Positions 21,092 to 48,075 of a DNA stretch of 64,000 nucleotides are shown here, piece after piece (within the stretch, counting starts at the first letter, position 1; each line of letters begins with the position of its first letter). Source of the DNA: Arthrobacter pascens (lineage in GTDB: Bacteria > Actinomycetota > Actinomycetes > Actinomycetales > Micrococcaceae). The notes below the pieces were generated by a model. That model ran no database searches, was not told where the DNA came from, and worked only from the letters and a program-made list of their open reading frames with translations. The stretch covers positions 1 through 64,000 of the forward strand of contig NZ_JAFHKT010000127.1 in assembly GCF_017052465.1 (NCBI RefSeq), read 5' to 3'. The translations under genes were made by a program, and so were the position numbers.

Positions 21092-21667
21092 ATGCTTAGC
21101 AACATGTCCTCAACGTCGAGCCCCTACCGGATCATCGCGGTTTGCACCGGCAACATCTGCCGGTCCCCGATGGCAGAGCTGATACTGGCGGAAGCCTTCG
21201 ACGCGGCGGGGCTGGCCGATGCCGTCGTCGTGGATTCCGCCGGAACCACCGCCTACGAGGCGGGACGGCCCATTGATGCCCGCGCCGCGCGGAAACTGAC
21301 CGCCCACAACCTCACCTCGGACCGGCATGTGGCCCGGGAATGGCGGCCTGAGTGGTACACGGAACGCCACCTGATCCTGGCCCTGGACGTGGACCACTAT
21401 GGCTGGCTCCGGGCGTCCGCCCCCGACAGTGAAACCAGGGCGAGAGTCCGCATGCTCCGCAGTTTCGATCCTGCGCTCGAGTCACAGGACCCACTCGACC
21501 AGGGCATCGAGGACCCCTGGTACGGGGACCACAGCGACTTCGAAAGCGTGTGGGACCAGATCCAGGCGGCCGTGCCCGGCATCCTCGAATTTGTCCGGTC
21601 GGCGATTGCAGATGAAGAAGCCCGGCTAAAACTTCAGAACAGCCAGCAGGTACGCTCTATTTCATGA
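21092..21667 (+). CDS. Low-molecular-weight protein tyrosine phosphatase
   Basis: A 191-residue LMW-PTP. The active-site loop is VCTGNICRSPMAE with nucleophile Cys18 and Arg24, and the general-acid loop EDPWYGDHSDFESV lies near residue 140. A second in-frame ATG at 21107 gives a start five residues later. Such phosphatases act on tyrosine kinases of polysaccharide export or on arginine-phosphorylated proteins. The stop overlaps the next ATG (ATGA), so it may be cotranscribed with the pabB-like gene, although that gene also has its own -10. Confidence 0.9.
   Translation: MLSNMSSTSSPYRIIAVCTGNICRSPMAELILAEAFDAAGLADAVVVDSAGTTAYEAGRPIDARAARKLTAHNLTSDRHVAREWRPEWYTERHLILALDVDHYGWLRASAPDSETRARVRMLRSFDPALESQDPLDQGIEDPWYGDHSDFESVWDQIQAAVPGILEFVRSAIADEEARLKLQNSQQVRSIS
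21651..21656 (+). promoter_or_regulatory. -10 hexamer TACGCT inside the phosphatase gene
   Basis: TACGCT lies seven bases before the ATG at 21664 and inside the 3' end of the phosphatase gene. It could give a separate leaderless message for the pabB fusion. Confidence 0.4.
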
Positions 21668-23805
21668 CCCCCGCACCTGTGATCATCGCCATTGACGGGC
21701 GGTCGGGCGCAGGCAAAACCACACTGGCCATTGAACTCGCGGCCCGGCTGCGGACCCACCGCAAGGTGGCGCTCTTCCACCTGGAGGACATCTACCCCGG
21801 CTGGAACGGACTCGCTGCCGGCGTTGAACGCTACGTCAGCACTGTGCTGGCACCCCTGCGGCGGGCAGAGCCGGCCACGTGGATCAGCTGGGACTGGGAA
21901 AAGCACTACGACGGCGATGCCCGGGTGACGCTGCCCGCGGAGATTGTGATCGTGGAAGGGGTGGGGGCCGCCGCCGCGGCGGCCCGGCCGATGCTGGACG
22001 CCGTCATCTGGGCCGACTCCCCGGAGGACGAACGCCGCGCCCGTGCCCTGGAGCGCGACGGCCAGACCTATGAGCCCTACTGGGACCAGTGGGCCGCCCA
22101 GGAAGCGGAACTCCTCGACTCGGACGATGTGCGCAGCCATGCGGACGTCCGGGTCCTCAACCGCGCCGATGACACCGCCCCCGCGGACGTCCTGCAGGCG
22201 CTCACTTACCTCCCGGGCCTCGCCACCGTGCTGGTTCCCGAGCTCTCCTCGCGCCGGGGCCTGCGGCTGCAGTCCGAGCGGATCGAGGCCCGCCCCGATG
22301 CCGCGGACCTGTTCGAATCGCTGTTCGGAACCTCCGCGAATGCCGTGTGGCTGGATTCCTCGCTGGTCCCGCCGGCGCCGCAGGGCAGGCACAGCGGACC
22401 GGACCGTGACGCTGCGGTGGCCGCGGAACGCAGCCGCTTCAGTATCCTGGCGGACGACGGGGGCACGTTCGGCCAGTCAGTTCGGCACCGTTCAGGGACC
22501 AACAGGATCACCGCAGGATGCGCCACCGCCGACGTGCCCGGGCCTTTCTTCCGCTGGCTGGAGACCGTCTGGGGGCGGAAGGCGGTCCGCGGCCCCGAGG
22601 GCTATTCGTGCGATTTCACGCTGGGCTGGCTGGGCTACCTGGGGTATGAGCTCAAGCGTGAGACCGGCGGCTCGGACGTCCCCGCCGACACTCCGGACGC
22701 TGCCCTGATCTTCGCCGGACGGGCGGTGGTCCTGGACCATGCCGAGGGCACGGCCTGGCTGCTGGCCCTCGACGCCCCTGATGCCGCCGACTGGCTTGCG
22801 AGCGCCCGGACTGCCGTGGCAACGGCGTCCGGCCACGGCACGGGCACGGCTCCCGGGACCGGCGCCAACCGTGCCCCCGAAGCCGGCGGCAGCCCCGCCG
22901 TCGTGCCTTTCCCTGCCCCGGAGTTCACCAGCCGCGATACCGAGGACAGCTACAAGCGCAAGATCGCCGACGCCCAGAAAGAGATCACCGACGGCAACTC
23001 GTACGAGGTCTGCCTCACCACGTCCCTCACCGCGGAGGTGCCCGCGGACGGGCTCGAGCCGTGGCCCACGTACCTGGCGCTGCGGACGAGGAACCCGGCG
23101 CCCTTCGCGAGCTACCTGCGGTTCAGCGGCCTCACGGTTGCCAGCACGTCCCCGGAGCGCTTCCTGCGGATAGCGTCCGACGGCGGCATGCGCGCCGAAC
23201 CGATCAAGGGCACCCGGGGCCGGGCTGCCGATCCGGAGACGGACGCGGAGCTGCGGCACGACCTGGCGACCTCGCTGAAGGACCGGGCCGAAAACATCAT
23301 GATTGTCGATCTGCTCCGGAACGATCTCAGCCACTTTGCCGAGCCCGGGTCCGTGACCGTCAGCCGGCTGTGCGAGATCGAGAGCTACGCCACCGTCCAC
23401 CAGCTCGTGAGCACCATCGATGCCCAGCTCCTGCCCGGATCGCCGCGGGCCGAAGCCGTGGCCGCGTGTTTCCCCGCCGGCTCCATGACCGGGGCGCCGA
23501 AGATCAGCACCATGGCCATCCTGGACCGGCTCGAGGATGGGCCGCGGGGCGTCTATTCGGGGGCGATCGGCTACTTCTCGCTGAACGGCGCCACGGACCT
23601 GGCGGTCGCCATCCGGACGCTCGTGATCCAGACCGGCGACGAGAACCGCGCTGCGGGCGGGCCGACGGCGACCCTGAGCCTCGGCGTCGGCGGCGCCATC
23701 ACGGCCGATTCAGTGCCCCAGGAGGAGTACGAGGAAATCCGCACCAAGGCCTTTGGCGTGCTGTCCGCCCTGGGCTCGGAATTCCCCGCGCGAACGGACA
23801 CTTAA
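21664..23805 (+). CDS. pabB: P-loop kinase-like / aminodeoxychorismate synthase component I fusion
   Basis: A 713-residue two-part protein. Residues 1-200 are a nucleoside-kinase-like P-loop domain: Walker A GRSGAGKT at 12-19, LFHLEDIYPGWNGLAAGV, then IVIVEGVGAA, the layout of uridine-kinase-like enzymes. Residues about 255-705 are the chorismate-using domain of PabB: FFRWLETVWG, GWLGYLGYELKRE, GNSYEVCLTT, STSPERFLRI, PIKGTRGR with Lys515, ENIMIVDLLRNDLSHF, GSMTGAPK and YSGAIGYF. PIKGT marks aminodeoxychorismate synthase; anthranilate synthase has PIAGT. It makes ADC for folate; a PabC-like lyase lies at 25442. No glutaminase domain is fused. The stop codon lies inside a dispersed palindromic repeat. 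Confidence 0.9.
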   Translation: MTPAPVIIAIDGRSGAGKTTLAIELAARLRTHRKVALFHLEDIYPGWNGLAAGVERYVSTVLAPLRRAEPATWISWDWEKHYDGDARVTLPAEIVIVEGVGAAAAAARPMLDAVIWADSPEDERRARALERDGQTYEPYWDQWAAQEAELLDSDDVRSHADVRVLNRADDTAPADVLQALTYLPGLATVLVPELSSRRGLRLQSERIEARPDAADLFESLFGTSANAVWLDSSLVPPAPQGRHSGPDRDAAVAAERSRFSILADDGGTFGQSVRHRSGTNRITAGCATADVPGPFFRWLETVWGRKAVRGPEGYSCDFTLGWLGYLGYELKRETGGSDVPADTPDAALIFAGRAVVLDHAEGTAWLLALDAPDAADWLASARTAVATASGHGTGTAPGTGANRAPEAGGSPAVVPFPAPEFTSRDTEDSYKRKIADAQKEITDGNSYEVCLTTSLTAEVPADGLEPWPTYLALRTRNPAPFASYLRFSGLTVASTSPERFLRIASDGGMRAEPIKGTRGRAADPETDAELRHDLATSLKDRAENIMIVDLLRNDLSHFAEPGSVTVSRLCEIESYATVHQLVSTIDAQLLPGSPRAEAVAACFPAGSMTGAPKISTMAILDRLEDGPRGVYSGAIGYFSLNGATDLAVAIRTLVIQTGDENRAAGGPTATLSLGVGGAITADSVPQEEYEEIRTKAFGVLSALGSEFPARTDT

Positions 23806-23860: not shown

Positions 23861-25384
23861 TTACTGGACCGTGGCGGTGAGGCGGGCCACGTTGTCCACG
23901 TACCGCGCTGCGAGGGGCCGCCGCATCCAGTCCTCAAGGTCAAGCTCGTGCGAGATGTCGCGGTACGTGTCCTCCACTTCGCGCATGCTGTTCACCGTCT
24001 CCGTGCCGAGCAGCATCACCGACACCTCCATGTTCAATGAAAAGGAGCGCATGTCCATGTTGCTGGAGCCGAGGACGGCCACTTCGTCGTCGATGGTGAA
24101 GTGCTTGGCGTGCAGCACGAACGGAGCCTTGTAGAGGTAGATCCGCACCCCGGCCTCCAGCAGCGCCTGGTAGTAGGACTGCTGGGCGTGGTGGACCAGG
24201 AACTGGTCGCCCTTTTCGGAGACGAAGAGCTCGACATCGACACCCCGCTGCGCCGCGGTGGTGATTGCGTAGAGCAGCGAATCGTCGGGCACGAAGTACG
24301 GGCTGCAGATGGAGATCCGGTGCTGGGCGGAGTAGATGAGCGTGTTGAACAGCCGGAGGTTGTTCTCGGTGCTGAAACCGGGGCCGCTGGGAACCACCTG
24401 TGCCGTGACGTTGCCGGAGTCGGTCCCGTCCGGCAGCTCGAGCTGCGCCTCGAGCTGGGCCTCGAGCGATTCGTCTGTCTCGCTGAGCCAGTCGGTGGCG
24501 AAAACCACGTTGAGGGTGGGCACGATGGGGCCGCGCAGCCGGGCCATCAGCTCCACCCATTCACGCCCCACCTTCCGGTGCTTGGGGTTGTTGTAGGACG
24601 GCTCGATGAGGTTCTGCGACCCGGTGAACGCCACCTCGCCGTCAATCACCATGATCTTGCGGTGGTTCCGGAGGTCCGGCCGGCGCCACTGGCCGTGGAT
24701 GGGCAGCAGCGGGAGCATCCGCCGCCACTGGATCCGGCTGGCTTTGAGGCGTTTGAGGAGCCTGTTGTAACCCTTAATCCGGAGGGTTCCGATGTGGTCG
24801 AACAGCACGCGGACTTCCACGCCGCGGTCGGCAGCGTCTTCCAGCGCCGTGAACAGCTCGTCCGTCACGTGGTCCGTGCTCATGATGTAAAACTCGGCGT
24901 TGATGAACCGCTTGGCTTTCCGGATGTCCTCGGTCATCGCCCGGATGGAGTCAGGGTAGCCCGGGATGAGTTCCACGGAGTTGCCGTCCACCATCGGGAT
25001 CGAACCCAGGCGCCGGTTGAGTTCGGCGGCGGATTTGACCCATTCGGGGCCGGGATAGTCGCTTCCGACGTCGGACAGCAGAGAGGTGCGGGCCCGCACC
25101 CTTTCGCTGACCAGCTGCTGCTGCTCCACGCGCCGCCGGGACAGCCGGAAGTTGCCGAACAGCAGGAAAAGGATCAGGCCGACGGCGGGCACAAAGAAGA
25201 TGCCCAGGAGCCACGCCATGGCGGTGGTGGGCCGGCGGTTGCCGGGGATGATGCCCAAGGCGAGCACCCTGATGATGAAGTCCGCGGCGCTGAAAACGAA
25301 AACCAGCCACGCGGGCAGGGTTCCGGCGAGCGGAAATGGCCACAACACTGGTGAACCCCCATTGTTTCTTACCCTCGGAGCCAT
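23861..25384 (-). CDS. cls: Cardiolipin synthase
   Basis: A 507-residue membrane phospholipase-D-family enzyme that condenses phosphatidyl donors to cardiolipin. Two N-terminal helices (about 13-35 and 44-66) anchor it. Two HKD motifs are intact: HRKIMVIDGEVAFTGSQN near residue 239 and HAKHFTIDDEVAVLGSSN near 424. I chose the ATG at 25384, just before the first helix; an open extension upstream would run into the divergent gene. It lies between pabB and pabC on the opposite strand. The gap to the divergent pabC-like gene is only 57 bases, so both promoters share it. Confidence 0.93.
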   Translation of the reverse strand: MAPRVRNNGGSPVLWPFPLAGTLPAWLVFVFSAADFIIRVLALGIIPGNRRPTTAMAWLLGIFFVPAVGLILFLLFGNFRLSRRRVEQQQLVSERVRARTSLLSDVGSDYPGPEWVKSAAELNRRLGSIPMVDGNSVELIPGYPDSIRAMTEDIRKAKRFINAEFYIMSTDHVTDELFTALEDAADRGVEVRVLFDHIGTLRIKGYNRLLKRLKASRIQWRRMLPLLPIHGQWRRPDLRNHRKIMVIDGEVAFTGSQNLIEPSYNNPKHRKVGREWVELMARLRGPIVPTLNVVFATDWLSETDESLEAQLEAQLELPDGTDSGNVTAQVVPSGPGFSTENNLRLFNTLIYSAQHRISICSPYFVPDDSLLYAITTAAQRGVDVELFVSEKGDQFLVHHAQQSYYQALLEAGVRIYLYKAPFVLHAKHFTIDDEVAVLGSSNMDMRSFSLNMEVSVMLLGTETVNSMREVEDTYRDISHELDLEDWMRRPLAARYVDNVARLTATVQ

Positions 25385-25429
25385 TCCGGAAGGGACGGTC
25401 CAGCACAGCCTATCGGGGACTGGCCGCAC

Positions 25430-25435
25430 TAAGCT
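25430..25435 (+). promoter_or_regulatory. -10 hexamer TAAGCT of a leaderless promoter
   Basis: TAAGCT ends six bases before the ATG at 25442; same hexamer and spacing as at 20362. Confidence 0.55.
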
Positions 25436-25441
25436 TGAGGC

Positions 25442-26374
25442 ATGACTTCTCCTGCCTCCGCCACCGTGCTGGTATTCCTCGACCCGGACTATGAGTACGG
25501 CCGGATTGCCGATCCCACCCAGCCGCAGCTGATGGCCACCGACCTGGGTGCCACCCGCGGTGACGGCGTATTCGAGTCCATGCTCGCCGTGGCCGGCCGG
25601 ACCCGCAAAGTTCAGGCGCATCTGGACCGGCTGGCCGGCTCTGCACACGCACTGGACCTCGACATCCCGGACCAGGATGCCTGGCGACGCGCCATCGACA
25701 CCGGTGTCGCGGCGTTCCGTTCGGATAACCCGGCTGCCTCACCCGACGAGGACGAGGCCGTGGTCAAGCTCCTGGTGACGAGGGGCGTCGAGGGCGCCGC
25801 GGCGCCCACCTGCTGGGTCCAGGTGTCCCCGGTCGGGGCGACCGGCCGTCGTCAGCGCGAAGCGGGCATCGACGTCATCCTGCTGGACCGCGGCTACGAC
25901 AGTGACGCCGCCGAGCGCGCCCCCTGGCTTCTGCTTGGCGCCAAGACGCTTTCCTATGCCGTCAACATGGCTGCCCTGCGCCACGCCCACAAACAAGGCG
26001 CCGACGACGTCATCTTCACCTCTTCCGACGGCCGCGTGCTGGAGGGGCCGACGTCGACCGTCCTGCTGGCACAGGTCGAAGAGTCCGACGACGGCGAAAC
26101 CGTCAAGCGGCTCATCACGCCCCAGCTGGACAGCGGCATCCTTGCGGGCACCTCCCAGGGTGCGCTGTTCGCCGCTGCGAAGGCGGCCGGCTGGGAGCTG
26201 GGCTACGGTCCGCTGGAACCCCAGGACCTGTTCGACGCCGACGCCGTGTGGCTGATTTCCAGCATCCGGCTGCTCGCACCGGTGAACCACATCGACGGCA
26301 AAGAGATCGGCACGCCTGCCCTGAAGAAGCAGCTCACGGCCGAGCTGGCGGAGCTCTTCGCCTGGGTCGAGTAA
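25442..26374 (+). CDS. pabC: Class IV aminotransferase, probable aminodeoxychorismate lyase
   Basis: A 310-residue fold-type IV PLP enzyme. Near the N terminus ATDLGATRGDGVFESMLAV matches the ADC lyase / branched-chain aminotransferase start. The Schiff-base lysine is in LGAKTLSYAVNMAALRHA near residue 170; the ADDVIFTSSDGRVLEGPTSTVLL block and the C-terminal DLFDADAVWLISSIRLLAPV follow. D-amino-acid and branched-chain aminotransferases share this fold, so the lyase call leans on the nearby PabB fusion, 1.6 kb upstream. It would release pyruvate from ADC to give 4-aminobenzoate. Confidence 0.8.
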   Translation: MTSPASATVLVFLDPDYEYGRIADPTQPQLMATDLGATRGDGVFESMLAVAGRTRKVQAHLDRLAGSAHALDLDIPDQDAWRRAIDTGVAAFRSDNPAASPDEDEAVVKLLVTRGVEGAAAPTCWVQVSPVGATGRRQREAGIDVILLDRGYDSDAAERAPWLLLGAKTLSYAVNMAALRHAHKQGADDVIFTSSDGRVLEGPTSTVLLAQVEESDDGETVKRLITPQLDSGILAGTSQGALFAAAKAAGWELGYGPLEPQDLFDADAVWLISSIRLLAPVNHIDGKEIGTPALKKQLTAELAELFAWVE

Positions 26375-32048: not shown

Positions 32049-32165
32049 TACGTTTTTGAGGAGTAATGAGAATCGGCGCCAAGCCCTGACTGGCCGGTCG
32101 GCAACCCTCCCTCGCGGCGGGGTGCCTCAGGTGAATACTCGGCATATCGACCACTTCGAGCTGCA
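32049..32165 (+). promoter_or_regulatory. SAM riboswitch (SAM-IV or SAM-I/IV type)
   Basis: Aptamer before the methionine genes. P1 is GAGTA (32061-32065) with TACTC (32136-32140). P2 is ATCGGC (32072-32077) with GCCGGT (32093-32098, one G-U), enclosing CCAAGCCCTGACTG. The conserved CGGCAACCCTCC then a C/G-rich P3 and GGTGCCTCAGGTGAA follow. These blocks match the actinobacterial SAM-IV family. A -10-like TACGTT at 32049-32054 places the RNA start at P1. High SAM should turn off the DUF1737-rhodanese-metZ operon, most likely at translation since the ribosome binding site (GAAGGAG, about 32174) lies shortly after. Confidence 0.85.
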
Positions 32166-32188
32166 AGCGTGAGAGAAGGAGATCCGTC

Positions 32189-32497
32189 ATGACGGACGCG
32201 CCCCCCGGCGTTACCCTGCCGACCCCGCAGGATAAACCTGAGGAGAAACTGGCCTACCGCCTGATCACGGGACCCGACAACCGTTCCTTCTGTGAACGCA
32301 TCTCGGACGCACTGGCCGAAGGGTATGTGCTGCACGGCAGCCCCGCGGCCGCATTCAACGGCAGAGACGTGATCGTGGCGCAGGCCGTGATCCTCCCCCT
32401 CGCCGTCGCCACCGCTGATGCCGCCGTGGCCACCGCCGTGGACCGGCTGGACTCGGACGAAAACCTCGACGCTGAAGCATTCGAGGGGCACGCGTGA
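32189..32497 (+). CDS. DUF1737 domain protein, first gene of the metZ operon
   Basis: A 102-residue protein starting at ATG behind GAAGGAG. Residues 20-70 match the small DUF1737 domain (KLAYRLITGPDNRSFCERISDALAEGYVLHGSPAAAFNGRDVIVAQAVI). The rest is an Ala/Val-rich tail. It is cytosolic with no catalytic motif. The stop overlaps the GTG of the rhodanese gene, and the SAM riboswitch lies directly upstream. DUF1737 proteins recur beside rhodanese and O-succinylhomoserine sulfhydrylase genes, which hints at a role in sulfide delivery; this is inference. Confidence 0.8.
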   Translation: MTDAPPGVTLPTPQDKPEEKLAYRLITGPDNRSFCERISDALAEGYVLHGSPAAAFNGRDVIVAQAVILPLAVATADAAVATAVDRLDSDENLDAEAFEGHA

Positions 32498-44716: not shown

Positions 44717-45520
44717 CTACGGCCCCTCCAGCCACACCATGTTCCACGTGCCCGCCCATACGGCGGCAACCACGGCGCCGGCCGCGATTGCCAGTCCGCC
44801 GAGCAGCACCCAGACGTCCAGGCTGCTGTAGGTCGATCCGCGGGCCCAGGTCCTGCCCGCACCGCCGAAGCCGCGGGCCTCCATGGTGACGGCGAGGCGG
44901 GTCGCGCGGCGAATGGCCTGGACCAGCAGCCCGAAACTTTGGCCCAGGGTGGCGCGCAGCCGCTGCCACGGGTTGCCGCGGGATCCAACGCCGCGGGCAC
45001 GCCGGGCCATGCCGATGGTCTGCCATTCCTCCGCCATGAGGCCCACGAGCCGCATGGCCGCCAGCGTTCCCAAGACGAAGCGGTGCGGCAGGCGGGCCTT
45101 CTGCGCCAGCGCATCGGCGAGGTCGGTGGGGTCGGTGCAGCTCATGAGCAGCACCGCCGGCAGCGCAATCGCCAGGCCCCGGAGCAGGAAACCCAGCCCC
45201 AGCTCAAGGGAGCCTTCGCTCATGGACCAGATTCCGACGTCGAGCAGTATCCCTCCGCTGTCCGGCGCGAGGATTGAGGTGCTCCAGCCGCCCACGGCGG
45301 CCGCGACGATCAGCGGCCAGCCGCGCTGCCAGAGGAGCGTCAACGTAAGGCCAGCCAGCGGGAAGAGCAGCAGTTCGCAGGCCAGTGCCACGGAGGCGGA
45401 CATCCAGTCGATCGACAGCGCGAGGACCAGGGTGATGAGGAAGACGGCCGCGAGTTTGGCCAGCGGGTTGGCCCGGGTCAGCAGGGCCCGGTTCCCGGCA
45501 ATTGTCAGGGCGGCCCTCAT
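44717..45520 (-). CDS. ykoC: ECF transporter transmembrane component (EcfT/YkoC)
   Basis: A 267-residue EcfT-type integral membrane protein linking the ATPases to the substrate-binding S protein. The start MRAALTIAGNRALLTRANPLAKL and the coupling helices GMARRARGVG and LAVTMEARGFG (the conserved Ala-Arg-Gly motifs) are present. It has about five helices. Its ATG overlaps the ykoD stop by four bases. Last gene of ykoE-ykoD-ykoC, which takes up a thiamine precursor, probably HMP. Confidence 0.9.
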   Translation of the reverse strand: MRAALTIAGNRALLTRANPLAKLAAVFLITLVLALSIDWMSASVALACELLLFPLAGLTLTLLWQRGWPLIVAAAVGGWSTSILAPDSGGILLDVGIWSMSEGSLELGLGFLLRGLAIALPAVLLMSCTDPTDLADALAQKARLPHRFVLGTLAAMRLVGLMAEEWQTIGMARRARGVGSRGNPWQRLRATLGQSFGLLVQAIRRATRLAVTMEARGFGGAGRTWARGSTYSSLDVWVLLGGLAIAAGAVVAAVWAGTWNMVWLEGP

Positions 45521-47169
45521 GGAGTGGCCGCCTTCGGTGTCCCGACGCCCGACGGACCCACGCCGGACGGACCGACGCCGGGGGCACGGAGTTCCGGTGC
45601 GCCCAGTTTGAGCTCGGTGCCGCCCAGCACCTGGGTGAATTCCTGGTCGTGCGTCACTGACACCACGGCGGTGCCGGCGTCGAGCAGTTCGGACAGGAAG
45701 GAGGCGAGCTCCGCCCAGGTGTTGGCGTCCTGGCCGAACGTCGGCTCGTCGAGGATCAGGACCTGCGGGTGGGCCGCCAGGACGGTGGCCACCGAGAGCC
45801 GCCGCTTTTCCCCGCCCGAGAGCGTGTACGGGTTGGCGTCCACGAGGTCGGTCAGCCGCAGCCTTTCGAGCAGTTCGTCCACCCGCTCTTCGCCGTGGCC
45901 CAGGTGCCGCGGGCCAAACTGCAGCTCGTCGAGGACCCGGCCGGTGACGAACTGGTGCTCAGGTTCCTGGAAGACCGTGCCGATCCTGGCGATCAGCTGT
46001 TCGGCCCGCCACTTGTAGGGATCGATTCCGGCTCCGCGGCTCAGCTCCACGGCGGCGGACACCTTGCCCTCGATAGGAGGGAGCAGGCCGGCGAGCGTCA
46101 GCGCGAACGTGGATTTGCCCGCACCGTTGGCCCCCGTGATGGTCAACGCTTCACCGGCGCGGACCTGCGCCGTGATGTTCCGCTGCACGGGCTGCGGCGG
46201 AACGGACGTGAAGCCGCGTCTCCGCGGACGCTCGCGGGAAACGCTGACGCCCTCGGCCGCGAGGAGCAGCTGGCCGGGCGCGACGTCCAGCTGGTTCCTC
46301 GCGCCTGCGAGGCCGCCGGGCGACCGCTGCCGGGTGGGCGGAACGTAGCCCGGAACCCAGACCCCGGCGGCGATCAGCATCTCGCGCGCCTGCACCAGGA
46401 CCTGGTCGGGAGTGCCGTCGATCAGCACGGCCGGCTGCGTGGCAGAGCCAGGCTGCAGCACGATGATCCGGTCCACGAGGTCTTTCCACACCGCAACCCG
46501 GTGCTCCACCACCACCAGCGTTGCGCCGGTCTTGTCGAGGCAGCGGCCCACGGCATCGCGGACCTCCAGGACGCCTGCCGGGTCCAGGTTGGCGGTCGGC
46601 TCGTCCAGCAGGATGAGCCCGGGGCGCATCGCCAGGATGCCGGCCAGCGCGAGGCGCTGCTTCTGGCCCCCGGACAGGGCCGACGTCGGGTGGTCCAGCG
46701 GAAGGTGCGCGAGCCCGACGTCGTCCAATGCCTCGTGCACGCGGCTCCAGATGGCGTCGCGGGGCACCGAGAGGTTTTCGGCGCCGAAGGCGACGTCGTC
46801 GCCGAGGCGGGAGAGGACCACCTGCGTTTCGGGGTCCTGCTGCACGAGTCCGGCGCGGCCGCGCTGGGCGCGCGGCGGCTCGCCGTCGATCAGGAGGCTG
46901 CCGCTTTCGTCCGCGTCGTCGCTGTCGGCGGACCCGCCGTCGTCGGCTGTGCTGCTTCCGGAGGTGCTGTCACCCAGCACGCCGGCGAGGGCGTGCAGCA
47001 GGGTGGATTTGCCGGCGCCCGAGGGCCCCAGGAGCAGCACCCGCTCCCCCGGGCGGATGTCCAGGTCCAGGGCGTTGACGGCAGGTGTGGTGCGGCCGGC
47101 GTGGCGCCAGCCCCAGCCGCGGGCGGTGACCGCGGCGGGGCGGACACCGCCGTCGTGTTCTCGGGGCAT
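45517..47169 (-). CDS. ykoD: ECF transporter ATPase, two ABC domains fused (YkoD)
   Basis: A 550-residue protein with two ABC ATPase domains in one chain. First: Walker A GPSGAGKSTLLHALAG near 50, signature LSGGQKQRLALAG, Walker B LILLDEPTANL. Second: GANGAGKSTFALTLAG near 345, LSGGEKRRLSVATVL, LILDEPTFGQD. Both look active. It powers uptake by the ykoE/ykoC complex. The C-terminal tail has three VGPSGVG-type repeats. The ATG overlaps the ykoE stop by one base (TGATG), so synthesis is coupled. Confidence 0.93.
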   Translation of the reverse strand: MPREHDGGVRPAAVTARGWGWRHAGRTTPAVNALDLDIRPGERVLLLGPSGAGKSTLLHALAGVLGDSTSGSSTADDGGSADSDDADESGSLLIDGEPPRAQRGRAGLVQQDPETQVVLSRLGDDVAFGAENLSVPRDAIWSRVHEALDDVGLAHLPLDHPTSALSGGQKQRLALAGILAMRPGLILLDEPTANLDPAGVLEVRDAVGRCLDKTGATLVVVEHRVAVWKDLVDRIIVLQPGSATQPAVLIDGTPDQVLVQAREMLIAAGVWVPGYVPPTRQRSPGGLAGARNQLDVAPGQLLLAAEGVSVSRERPRRRGFTSVPPQPVQRNITAQVRAGEALTITGANGAGKSTFALTLAGLLPPIEGKVSAAVELSRGAGIDPYKWRAEQLIARIGTVFQEPEHQFVTGRVLDELQFGPRHLGHGEERVDELLERLRLTDLVDANPYTLSGGEKRRLSVATVLAAHPQVLILDEPTFGQDANTWAELASFLSELLDAGTAVVSVTHDQEFTQVLGGTELKLGAPELRAPGVGPSGVGPSGVGTPKAATP

Positions 47170-47789
47170 CAGTTGAAGACGGGCTCCGTAGCTGCCTTGC
47201 GGGACGCGAATGAGCTCAGCACCCCGGTCCTGGCCAGCCCGCGGGTGGCGATCCAGGACAGCGCACCGGCGATGATGGCGCCCGAGATGGCGGTGAAGAT
47301 GATGTAGGCCAGCTTGTCCCCGGCCGCGTAGGCGATGTTCCAGCCCCAGGGAGCGAACGCATCGTTCAGGCCGCAGAACAGCCCTGCGCCTGCGCCGGCC
47401 AGCAGCGAAACGGGCAGGTTGAACTTCTTGTACCTGAAGGCTGCAAACACGAGTTCCGCGCCCAGGCCCTGCAGGATGCCGGAGATCAGCACGGTGGTGC
47501 CGTACTGGGATCCCATGATCAGCTCACCGGTGGCGGCCACGGCTTCGCAGAACAGCGCCGCGCCGGGCTTGCGGATGATGAGCATGCCGAGCACCGCCGG
47601 GATCATCCAGCCGCCGGCGTAGAGGCCGGTGAGCGGCGGGTAGACCGCGTTGATGGGGGCGGAGATGAGGTTGGCGCCCTGGGACCAGGCCCAGAAGATC
47701 ACGCCGCCGGCGACGGCGATCAGTGCCGCCACGACGATGTCGGCCACGCGCCAGTTGTAACCGGTCTTCTTGATTGCTGCAGTTGTCAT
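47169..47789 (-). CDS. ykoE: ECF transporter S component for thiamine precursor (YkoE)
   Basis: A 206-residue membrane protein with about six helices, the substrate-binding S component. WRVADIVVAALIAVAGGVIFWAWSQG, AGGWMIPAVLGMLIIRKPGAALFCEAVAA, and ISGILQGLGAELVFAAFRYKKF match the YkoE family. Its ATG at 47789 is six bases after AGGAGG. A TPP riboswitch and a hairpin that covers that ribosome binding site lie upstream, so the system is off when thiamine pyrophosphate is abundant. Confidence 0.93.
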   Translation of the reverse strand: MTTAAIKKTGYNWRVADIVVAALIAVAGGVIFWAWSQGANLISAPINAVYPPLTGLYAGGWMIPAVLGMLIIRKPGAALFCEAVAATGELIMGSQYGTTVLISGILQGLGAELVFAAFRYKKFNLPVSLLAGAGAGLFCGLNDAFAPWGWNIAYAAGDKLAYIIFTAISGAIIAGALSWIATRGLARTGVLSSFASRKAATEPVFN

Positions 47790-47795
47790 GATGGT

Positions 47796-47814
47796 CCTCC
47801 TGAGGATCAGGAGG
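47796..47814 (-). promoter_or_regulatory. Hairpin hiding the ykoE ribosome binding site
   Basis: A perfect 8+3+8 inverted repeat (plus strand CCTCCTGA-GGA-TCAGGAGG). The AGGAGG of ykoE is one arm. This is the likely translation-level expression platform of the TPP riboswitch just upstream. Confidence 0.8.
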
Positions 47815-47873
47815 GGAAAGCGCTCCCCGGCTGCGGGCGGTGGGACTGCCTGCTGCCGGACACTCTGAGAACT

Positions 47874-47996
47874 CGACTCCCTTGCGCCGGTACTAGCCGG
47901 ATCAGGTTCGAGGGTCTGCGGCTGTCCGCACTCTCAGCGCCCTTCCGCGGTTCCCTGGCAATGCCAGTGATGCCCGACGGCGGCGCTCCCCTGTCG
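47874..47996 (-). promoter_or_regulatory. TPP riboswitch (thi box)
   Basis: On the minus strand the conserved elements are, in order, GGGGAGCGCC, GCGCTGAGAGTGCGG, CAGACCCTCGAACCTGATC, CGGCTAGTACCGGCGCAAGG and GGAG. These are the pyrimidine- and pyrophosphate-sensor arms of a TPP aptamer. An extended P3 arm of about 50 bases (about 47932-47980) is inserted, as often seen in actinobacteria. It controls ykoEDC. Confidence 0.93.
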
Positions 47997-48075
47997 TAAT
48001 AAATCTGCCCTTGTGGGCTGATCCAGTTTACACCGGTACAGCCCCGGCAGCCCTGGGCTGCAGTCACATTCCGGG

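Follow-up and report, generated by a model that had tools for sequence, protein, structure and literature searches.

Organization of the Locus

The DNA analyzed here, referred to below as the window, is a stretch of 64,000 nucleotides from Arthrobacter pascens (contig NZ_JAFHKT010000127.1), and its relevant features are collected in Table 1. The gene under study is one frame of 713 codons that joins a Walker-A kinase-like domain to a PIKGT-type PabB, as had been proposed in an earlier note made from the sequence alone; both halves look intact, and the motif GRSGAGKT stands at residues 12-19, where that note had placed it. The ATG of the fusion gene overlaps the stop codon of the upstream low-molecular-weight phosphatase gene by 4 bases, and a reading of the neighbouring genes showed that such a phosphatase gene adjoins the kinase in Micrococcaceae loci. 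The PabC-like lyase that the earlier note had recognized 1.6 kb downstream, past a cardiolipin-synthase-like gene, is also there, since it scored 295 bits against NF005887 (cut-off 278) and the intervening gene carries PLD domains and PLDc_N. Elsewhere in the window, a SAM-IV riboswitch (32062-32175, plus strand, 87.5 bits) lies ahead of genes starting at 32189.

Table 1. Features of the window discussed in the text
Feature	Position	Strand	Evidence
Low-molecular-weight phosphatase gene	21092..21667	+	PF01451, 115.7 bits
Kinase-PabB fusion gene, 713 aa	21664..23805	+	One open frame
P-loop kinase domain, residues 5-165, predicted thiamine kinase	21676..22158	+	NF005115, 157 bits; AlphaFold2
Walker A GRSGAGKT, residues 12-19	21697..21720	+	Gly17, Lys18 conserved
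HLEDIYPGWNGL, residues 39-50, presumed catalytic acid Glu41 and Trp47	21778..21813	+	Conservation
WDW, residues 76-78, presumed substrate pocket	21889..21897	+	Trp78 in 134/134 rows
Presumed lid region, residues 124-147 (R124, R127, R131, D132, W140, W143, Q146, E147)	22033..22104	+	
PabB (aminodeoxychorismate synthase component I), about residues 200-709	22261..23790	+	PF00425, PF04715, TIGR00553
PIKGT motif, residues 513-517	23200..23214	+	Sequence
Cardiolipin-synthase-like gene	23861..25648	-	PLDc_2, PLDc, PLDc_N
pabC, aminodeoxychorismate lyase; frame start overlaps the PLD frame	25442..26374	+	NF005887
ykoC, ECF T component	44717..45520	-	PF02361
ykoD, ECF ATPase	45517..47169	-	TIGR01166 over cut-off; PF00005
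ykoE, ECF substrate-binding component	47169..47789	-	PF09819, 140.8 bits
TPP riboswitch before ykoEDC	47861..48002	-	RF00059, 59.9 bits

The PabB Half

The C-terminal part of the fusion protein matched PF00425 with 273 bits (cut-off 27) over residues 427-695 and narrowly missed the cut-off of the pabB model TIGR00553 (320.6 versus 328.4 bits, residues 322-696). The PIKGT motif, which contains the catalytic lysine and distinguishes PabB from TrpE (PIAGT), was invariant in a 42-row alignment, and the 15 plasmid-borne PabB matches listed begin at residues 165-206. Three chorismate-binding genes are present in the A. pascens genome, the fusion gene being the one that was read with the PabB motif, and a single TrpG/PabA over cut-off is encoded elsewhere (contig C79). 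The C-terminal domain would accordingly be described as an ordinary PabB, which would receive ammonia from the separate TrpG/PabA and hand its product to the PabC encoded next door. Actinobacterial PabA-PabB fusions are built in a similar way, with an N-terminal partner about 190 residues long ahead of PabB; in them the partner is an amidotransferase, whereas in the fusion protein of A. pascens it is a kinase. One apparent fusion of that type, a 728-aa open frame with a TrpG/PabA match directly before PabB, was seen in a genome of family f6 (G041:C1:752743-754881), with the amidotransferase in the place held by the kinase in Micrococcaceae.

Conservation of the Fusion

A single match spanning residues 1 to at least 606 of the fusion protein was found in 36 of the 37 genomes of the genus (G000-G036, that of A. 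pascens included), and in the remaining one, G030, the match was in pieces. At the family level, one match ran across both domains in 81 of 149 genomes (a manual count of the listing), both parts appeared as nearby pieces on one contig in 9 further genomes of the 149, and G190 was fused on direct reading. The copies in pieces at G030:C1:3529663-3531834 and G022:C1:2866895-2868915 may reflect either a frameshift or an assembly error. AlphaFold2 modeled residues 1-196 with a pLDDT of 94.7 and the full chain with a pLDDT of 88.7 and a whole-chain pTM of 0.90. The domain fusion is real and does not reflect chance.

The synthesis of two proteins through an internal start was considered and rejected. 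Among 58 fused genes, no in-frame start between residues 160 and 300 was both common and accompanied by a Shine-Dalgarno-like sequence. The commonest in-frame ATG, at residue 262 in 32 of the 58 genes, lacked a Shine-Dalgarno-like sequence in every case, and it falls within a strand of the AlphaFold2 model.

The Walker-A residues Gly17 and Lys18 were kept in all 58 fused sequences (that of A. pascens included) and in all 42 stand-alone sequences, and most other residues of the kinase motifs were also invariant in the 58 fused proteins. In 10 pairwise comparisons of the A. pascens gene with 10 of the other 57 fused genes, dN/dS was 0.10-0.36 for the kinase and 0.12-0.27 for the catalytic part of PabB. 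One possibility is that the P-loop domain has given up its kinase activity and serves only to stabilize PabB or to bind a partner; in its favour, the unrelated enzyme Tad2 of S. pombe carries a domain of the same fold at its N terminus (7eey, Z 18.1). We regard this as very improbable, since Walker A and the other motif residues are retained and the kinase dN/dS is close to that of the PabB catalytic part. The presumed catalytic acid at position 41 speaks on both sides of this question, being Glu in 58/58 fused proteins and Asp in 37/42 stand-alone kinases, with Glu also in the other 5/42.

A different proposal is that the domain serves PabB, either as an ATP sensor or regulator or by phosphorylating a folate precursor, and both forms of it had been put forward in the earlier note. 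The covalent fusion conserved in the genus, the proximity of PabC, and the whole-chain pTM are consistent with such a role, yet we judge it improbable because the kinase occurs without PabB, and PabB without the kinase, in related genera, and among the 100 loci read a pabB-like match near the kinase was seen only in L066, in L080, and in nine fused loci. Moreover, FolK was found in 78/80 family genomes, A. pascens included, and for this reason a pterin or folate kinase replacing FolK was rejected, so that the suggested phosphorylation of a pterin or folate precursor lost its footing; as to nucleotide control of PabB, nothing found points to such regulation.

Family and Fold of the Kinase Domain

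A search for stand-alone homologues of the N-terminal domain, as envisaged in the earlier note, led to the NF005115 (PRK06547.1) family, which has members at many loci. The model is named "hypothetical protein" and gives no function. It matched residues 6-163 of the fused domain with 157 bits (E 2.8e-46; 153 bits in the full protein), below its cut-off of 173, whereas the cut-off was passed by kinases of ykoEDC operons from Mycolicibacterium (213.6 bits) and Cryobacterium (195.8 bits). The match nevertheless covers the same domain over 158 residues, with the same core motifs.

The closest solved fold was that of uridine-cytidine kinase 2 (UCK2, 1uej_B), with a Z score of 19.1 and an rmsd of 2.6 A over 181 residues (VIA-align), and Foldseek likewise returned uridine-cytidine kinases, with TM values up to 0.77 by query length. 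The fused domain has its fold and P-loop kinase layout in common with UCK2 and bacterial uridine kinase, but it is only 17% identical to UCK2, and its scores fall far under the cut-offs of the uridine kinase models (33.3 versus 220.3 bits for TIGR00235 udk; 38.9 versus 180 for NF004018). The kinase domain has a uridine-kinase fold, but by score it is not a uridine or cytidine kinase. The histidine of UCK2 that we take to read the base aligns with residue 81 of the fused domain, a position that was variable across the family in a 134-row alignment.

In the same alignment, G17, K18, D/E41, W47, W78, and W143 were present in 134/134 kinases whatever their genomic context, and R131 in 133. Two positions set the fused branch apart from the kinases linked to ykoEDC: residue 41 was Glu in 20/20 fused rows versus Asp in 33/33 ykoEDC-linked rows, and residue 147 was Glu in the fused rows and W, F, or V in 15/33 ykoEDC-linked rows. 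The midpoint-rooted kinase tree has two deep halves, and most ykoEDC-linked kinases are not in the one that contains the Micrococcaceae kinases, so that any function assigned through them has to be carried across the family to the fused domain. The A. pascens genome also contains a distant stand-alone paralogue (L002, G000:C44:10680-11162) that scored 82 bits against NF005115 and is without D77, R124, and W140; it probably has another function.

Thiamine Context of the Stand-alone Kinases

Genomic neighbours were read for the best 80 of at least 112 named loci, which is not a random sample, and in 31 of these 80 the kinase gene followed ykoE-ykoD-ykoC, which encode an ECF transporter linked to thiamine, on the same strand. 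Mycolicibacterium, Mycobacterium, and Corynebacterium have loci of this type, as do many Microbacteriaceae. A possible start of the kinase lay between -17 and +26 nt from the ykoC stop in 26 of the 31 ykoEDC-linked loci within that set, and of the other five, two had an incomplete list of starts and three had their ykoC stop placed 0.7-0.8 kb upstream by the script. A TPP riboswitch was detected 5' of ykoE at the gathering score in 20 of the 31 loci, again among the best 80 of at least 112, and at 40-54 bits, below gathering, in 9 further ones, which brings the total to 29/31; at L187 and L211 it was not found at ykoE even below gathering. It was found in 0/14 control kinase loci without ykoE, which were chosen by hand and scanned at the gathering score only.

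Taken together, the ykoEDC genes and the TPP riboswitch make thiamine the pathway to which stand-alone kinases are repeatedly linked. The genome of C. glutamicum, which served as a control, contains a match that passes the NF005115 cut-off, and a passage of a study of this organism describes a TPP riboswitch, confirmed by RNAseq, before cg1227, itself described there as part of an ABC transporter (PMC3890552). Nothing was found in the open-licence literature on PRK06547, on a thiamine kinase in actinobacteria, with ykoE, or with thiL, or on any link between pabB, Arthrobacter, and uridine kinase.

A thiamine gene context was thus seen for the stand-alone family and not for the fused gene, at whose locus no TPP riboswitch was found. 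The window has a ykoEDC operon of its own (44717-48002, minus strand), which does not contain a kinase as fourth gene; the PabB-fused kinase is about 21 kb away. Both ThiL and ThiE are present in the A. pascens genome, and TPK gave no match there at E<=1e-8.

These observations leave room for a kinase that acts on some other small molecule, such as a nucleoside, a thiamine precursor like HMP, or another metabolite, whether throughout the family or just in its fused members, with ykoEDC marking a shared location rather than the substrate. Such a reading would agree with the uridine-cytidine kinases as closest solved fold, with the fused gene having Glu for Asp at position 41 and no TPP riboswitch, and with the varied contexts of the family, in which other stand-alone kinases adjoin hisF or sit between argH and tyrS (argGH-tyrS) instead of following ykoEDC. 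It also agrees with a passage of PMC6593275 that assigns YkoEDC to HMP and YkoEDC2 to B1. We nonetheless consider a substrate other than thiamine less likely, given the TPP riboswitches at 29 of the 31 ykoEDC-kinase loci, the distance from the udk model, and the fact that the 54 kinase genomes without ThiE would have no evident need of an HMP kinase.

Co-occurrence of Thiamine Genes

The distribution of thiamine genes was followed in 149 genomes of the order, which are related to one another, by family scans at fixed E-value limits that may miss divergent genes; under these conditions the kinase was found in 110 genomes, YkoE in 110, ThiL in 134, ThiE in 81, and TPK over cut-off in 9. Kinase and TPK occurred together in 0/149 genomes, and TPK over cut-off in 0/110 kinase genomes, in a search for other thiamine kinases that covered those of the TPK type. 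All 9 TPK genomes belong to family f4, and hence this mutual exclusion rests on one lineage. ThiL was present in 107/110 kinase genomes, in 0/9 TPK genomes, and in 27/30 genomes with neither; since it is near universal, its presence alongside the kinase says little alone and marks the absence of TPK more than the presence of the kinase.

ThiL without ThiE or TPK was observed in 61/149 genomes, of which 53 have the kinase and 8 have none. At the limits used, these 61 genomes would be expected to need a kinase that converts thiamine to its monophosphate on the way to thiamine diphosphate, and a thiamine monophosphate-forming kinase would fill this gap. Two genomes with the fusion, G076 and G148, are of this type, being without ThiE and TPK and having ThiL and YkoE. 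Over the whole set, the absence of ThiE was not significantly associated with the presence of the kinase (odds ratio 1.7, p 0.19), and the linkage between YkoE and the kinase at the genome level was loose, with 29 kinase genomes without YkoE and 29 YkoE genomes without the kinase. Furthermore, ykoEDC and ThiL were present with no kinase match in 10/10 genomes of family f6 and in 8/10 of family f11. At the loci of these two families that were read (L261-L267), ykoEDC is present, ThiL is found in the genome, and the kinase gave no match; three of these loci belong to f11, and two of the three (L265 and L266) have a frame of 130-158 aa after the transporter.

Origin of the Fusion

Related genera show the genes of the locus in other arrangements. 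Kocuria and the genera g24 and g27 have the order phosphatase, kinase, pabC, with no PabB at the locus and, in g24, possibly with a transporter-like frame among these genes. Galactobacter, also without PabB at this locus, has phosphatase, kinase, a cardiolipin-synthase-like gene, and pabC, and in genome G106 of genus g25 PabB is present with no kinase match at E<=1e-15. In the 134-row midpoint-rooted tree, the fused clade took in Kocuria and Galactobacter, with moderate support, whereas in a 35-row tree rooted with an outgroup, Kocuria, g27, and g24 fell outside it and Galactobacter inside without resolution; a single fused clade was not rejected in the latter tree (p-AU 0.458). One fusion within the Micrococcaceae is the most likely origin, and Galactobacter possibly reflects a later loss of PabB. 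The simplest course would be that pabB arrived next to pabC, with which it shares a pathway, on the side facing the kinase gene, and that the frames of kinase and PabB were then joined.

Proposed Function

From the domains, their conservation, the operon context, the riboswitches, and the gene co-occurrence, all of them observed, we infer the substrate of the kinase, the roles of its catalytic residues, the independence of the two domains, and the course of the fusion. The reading that we somewhat favour is that the fusion protein combines, on one chain, PabB and an ATP-dependent thiamine kinase with the fold of uridine kinases, and that the two activities are probably independent of each other. 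The Walker A motif of the N-terminal domain would bind ATP, Glu41 (Asp in most relatives) would activate the hydroxyethyl group of thiamine, the invariant set W47, W78, and W143 may hold the thiamine rings, and the product, thiamine monophosphate, would pass to ThiL. The evidence for thiamine comes from gene context. It is strongest for the half of the family with the ykoEDC-linked kinases and is extended to the fused domain by way of the shared core residues. Counted against thiamine are the change from Asp41 in the ykoEDC-linked kinases to Glu41 in the fused ones, the shift at residue 147, and the exceptions in f6 and f11.

For the family as a whole, the chances seem to us evenly balanced that NF005115 represents a thiamine kinase present in many actinobacteria and related to neither ThiK nor TPK, which together with ThiL would salvage imported thiamine, and that its Micrococcaceae version is fused to PabB, in a protein serving both B1 salvage and folate (B9) synthesis. 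The predicted substrate would be the same as that of E. coli ThiK and of TPK/ThiN. ThiK has a choline-kinase-like fold and TPK a fold of its own, both different from that of the kinase domain, and to our knowledge the uridine-kinase fold is not used by any known thiamine kinase.

Encoded beside thiamine transporters under riboswitch control, this small and widely conserved "hypothetical protein" presents itself as a direct candidate for a thiamine kinase. If this assignment is true, it would provide a function for the extra domain of PabB across Arthrobacter and its relatives, and two unrelated vitamin pathways would have been fused by gene position.
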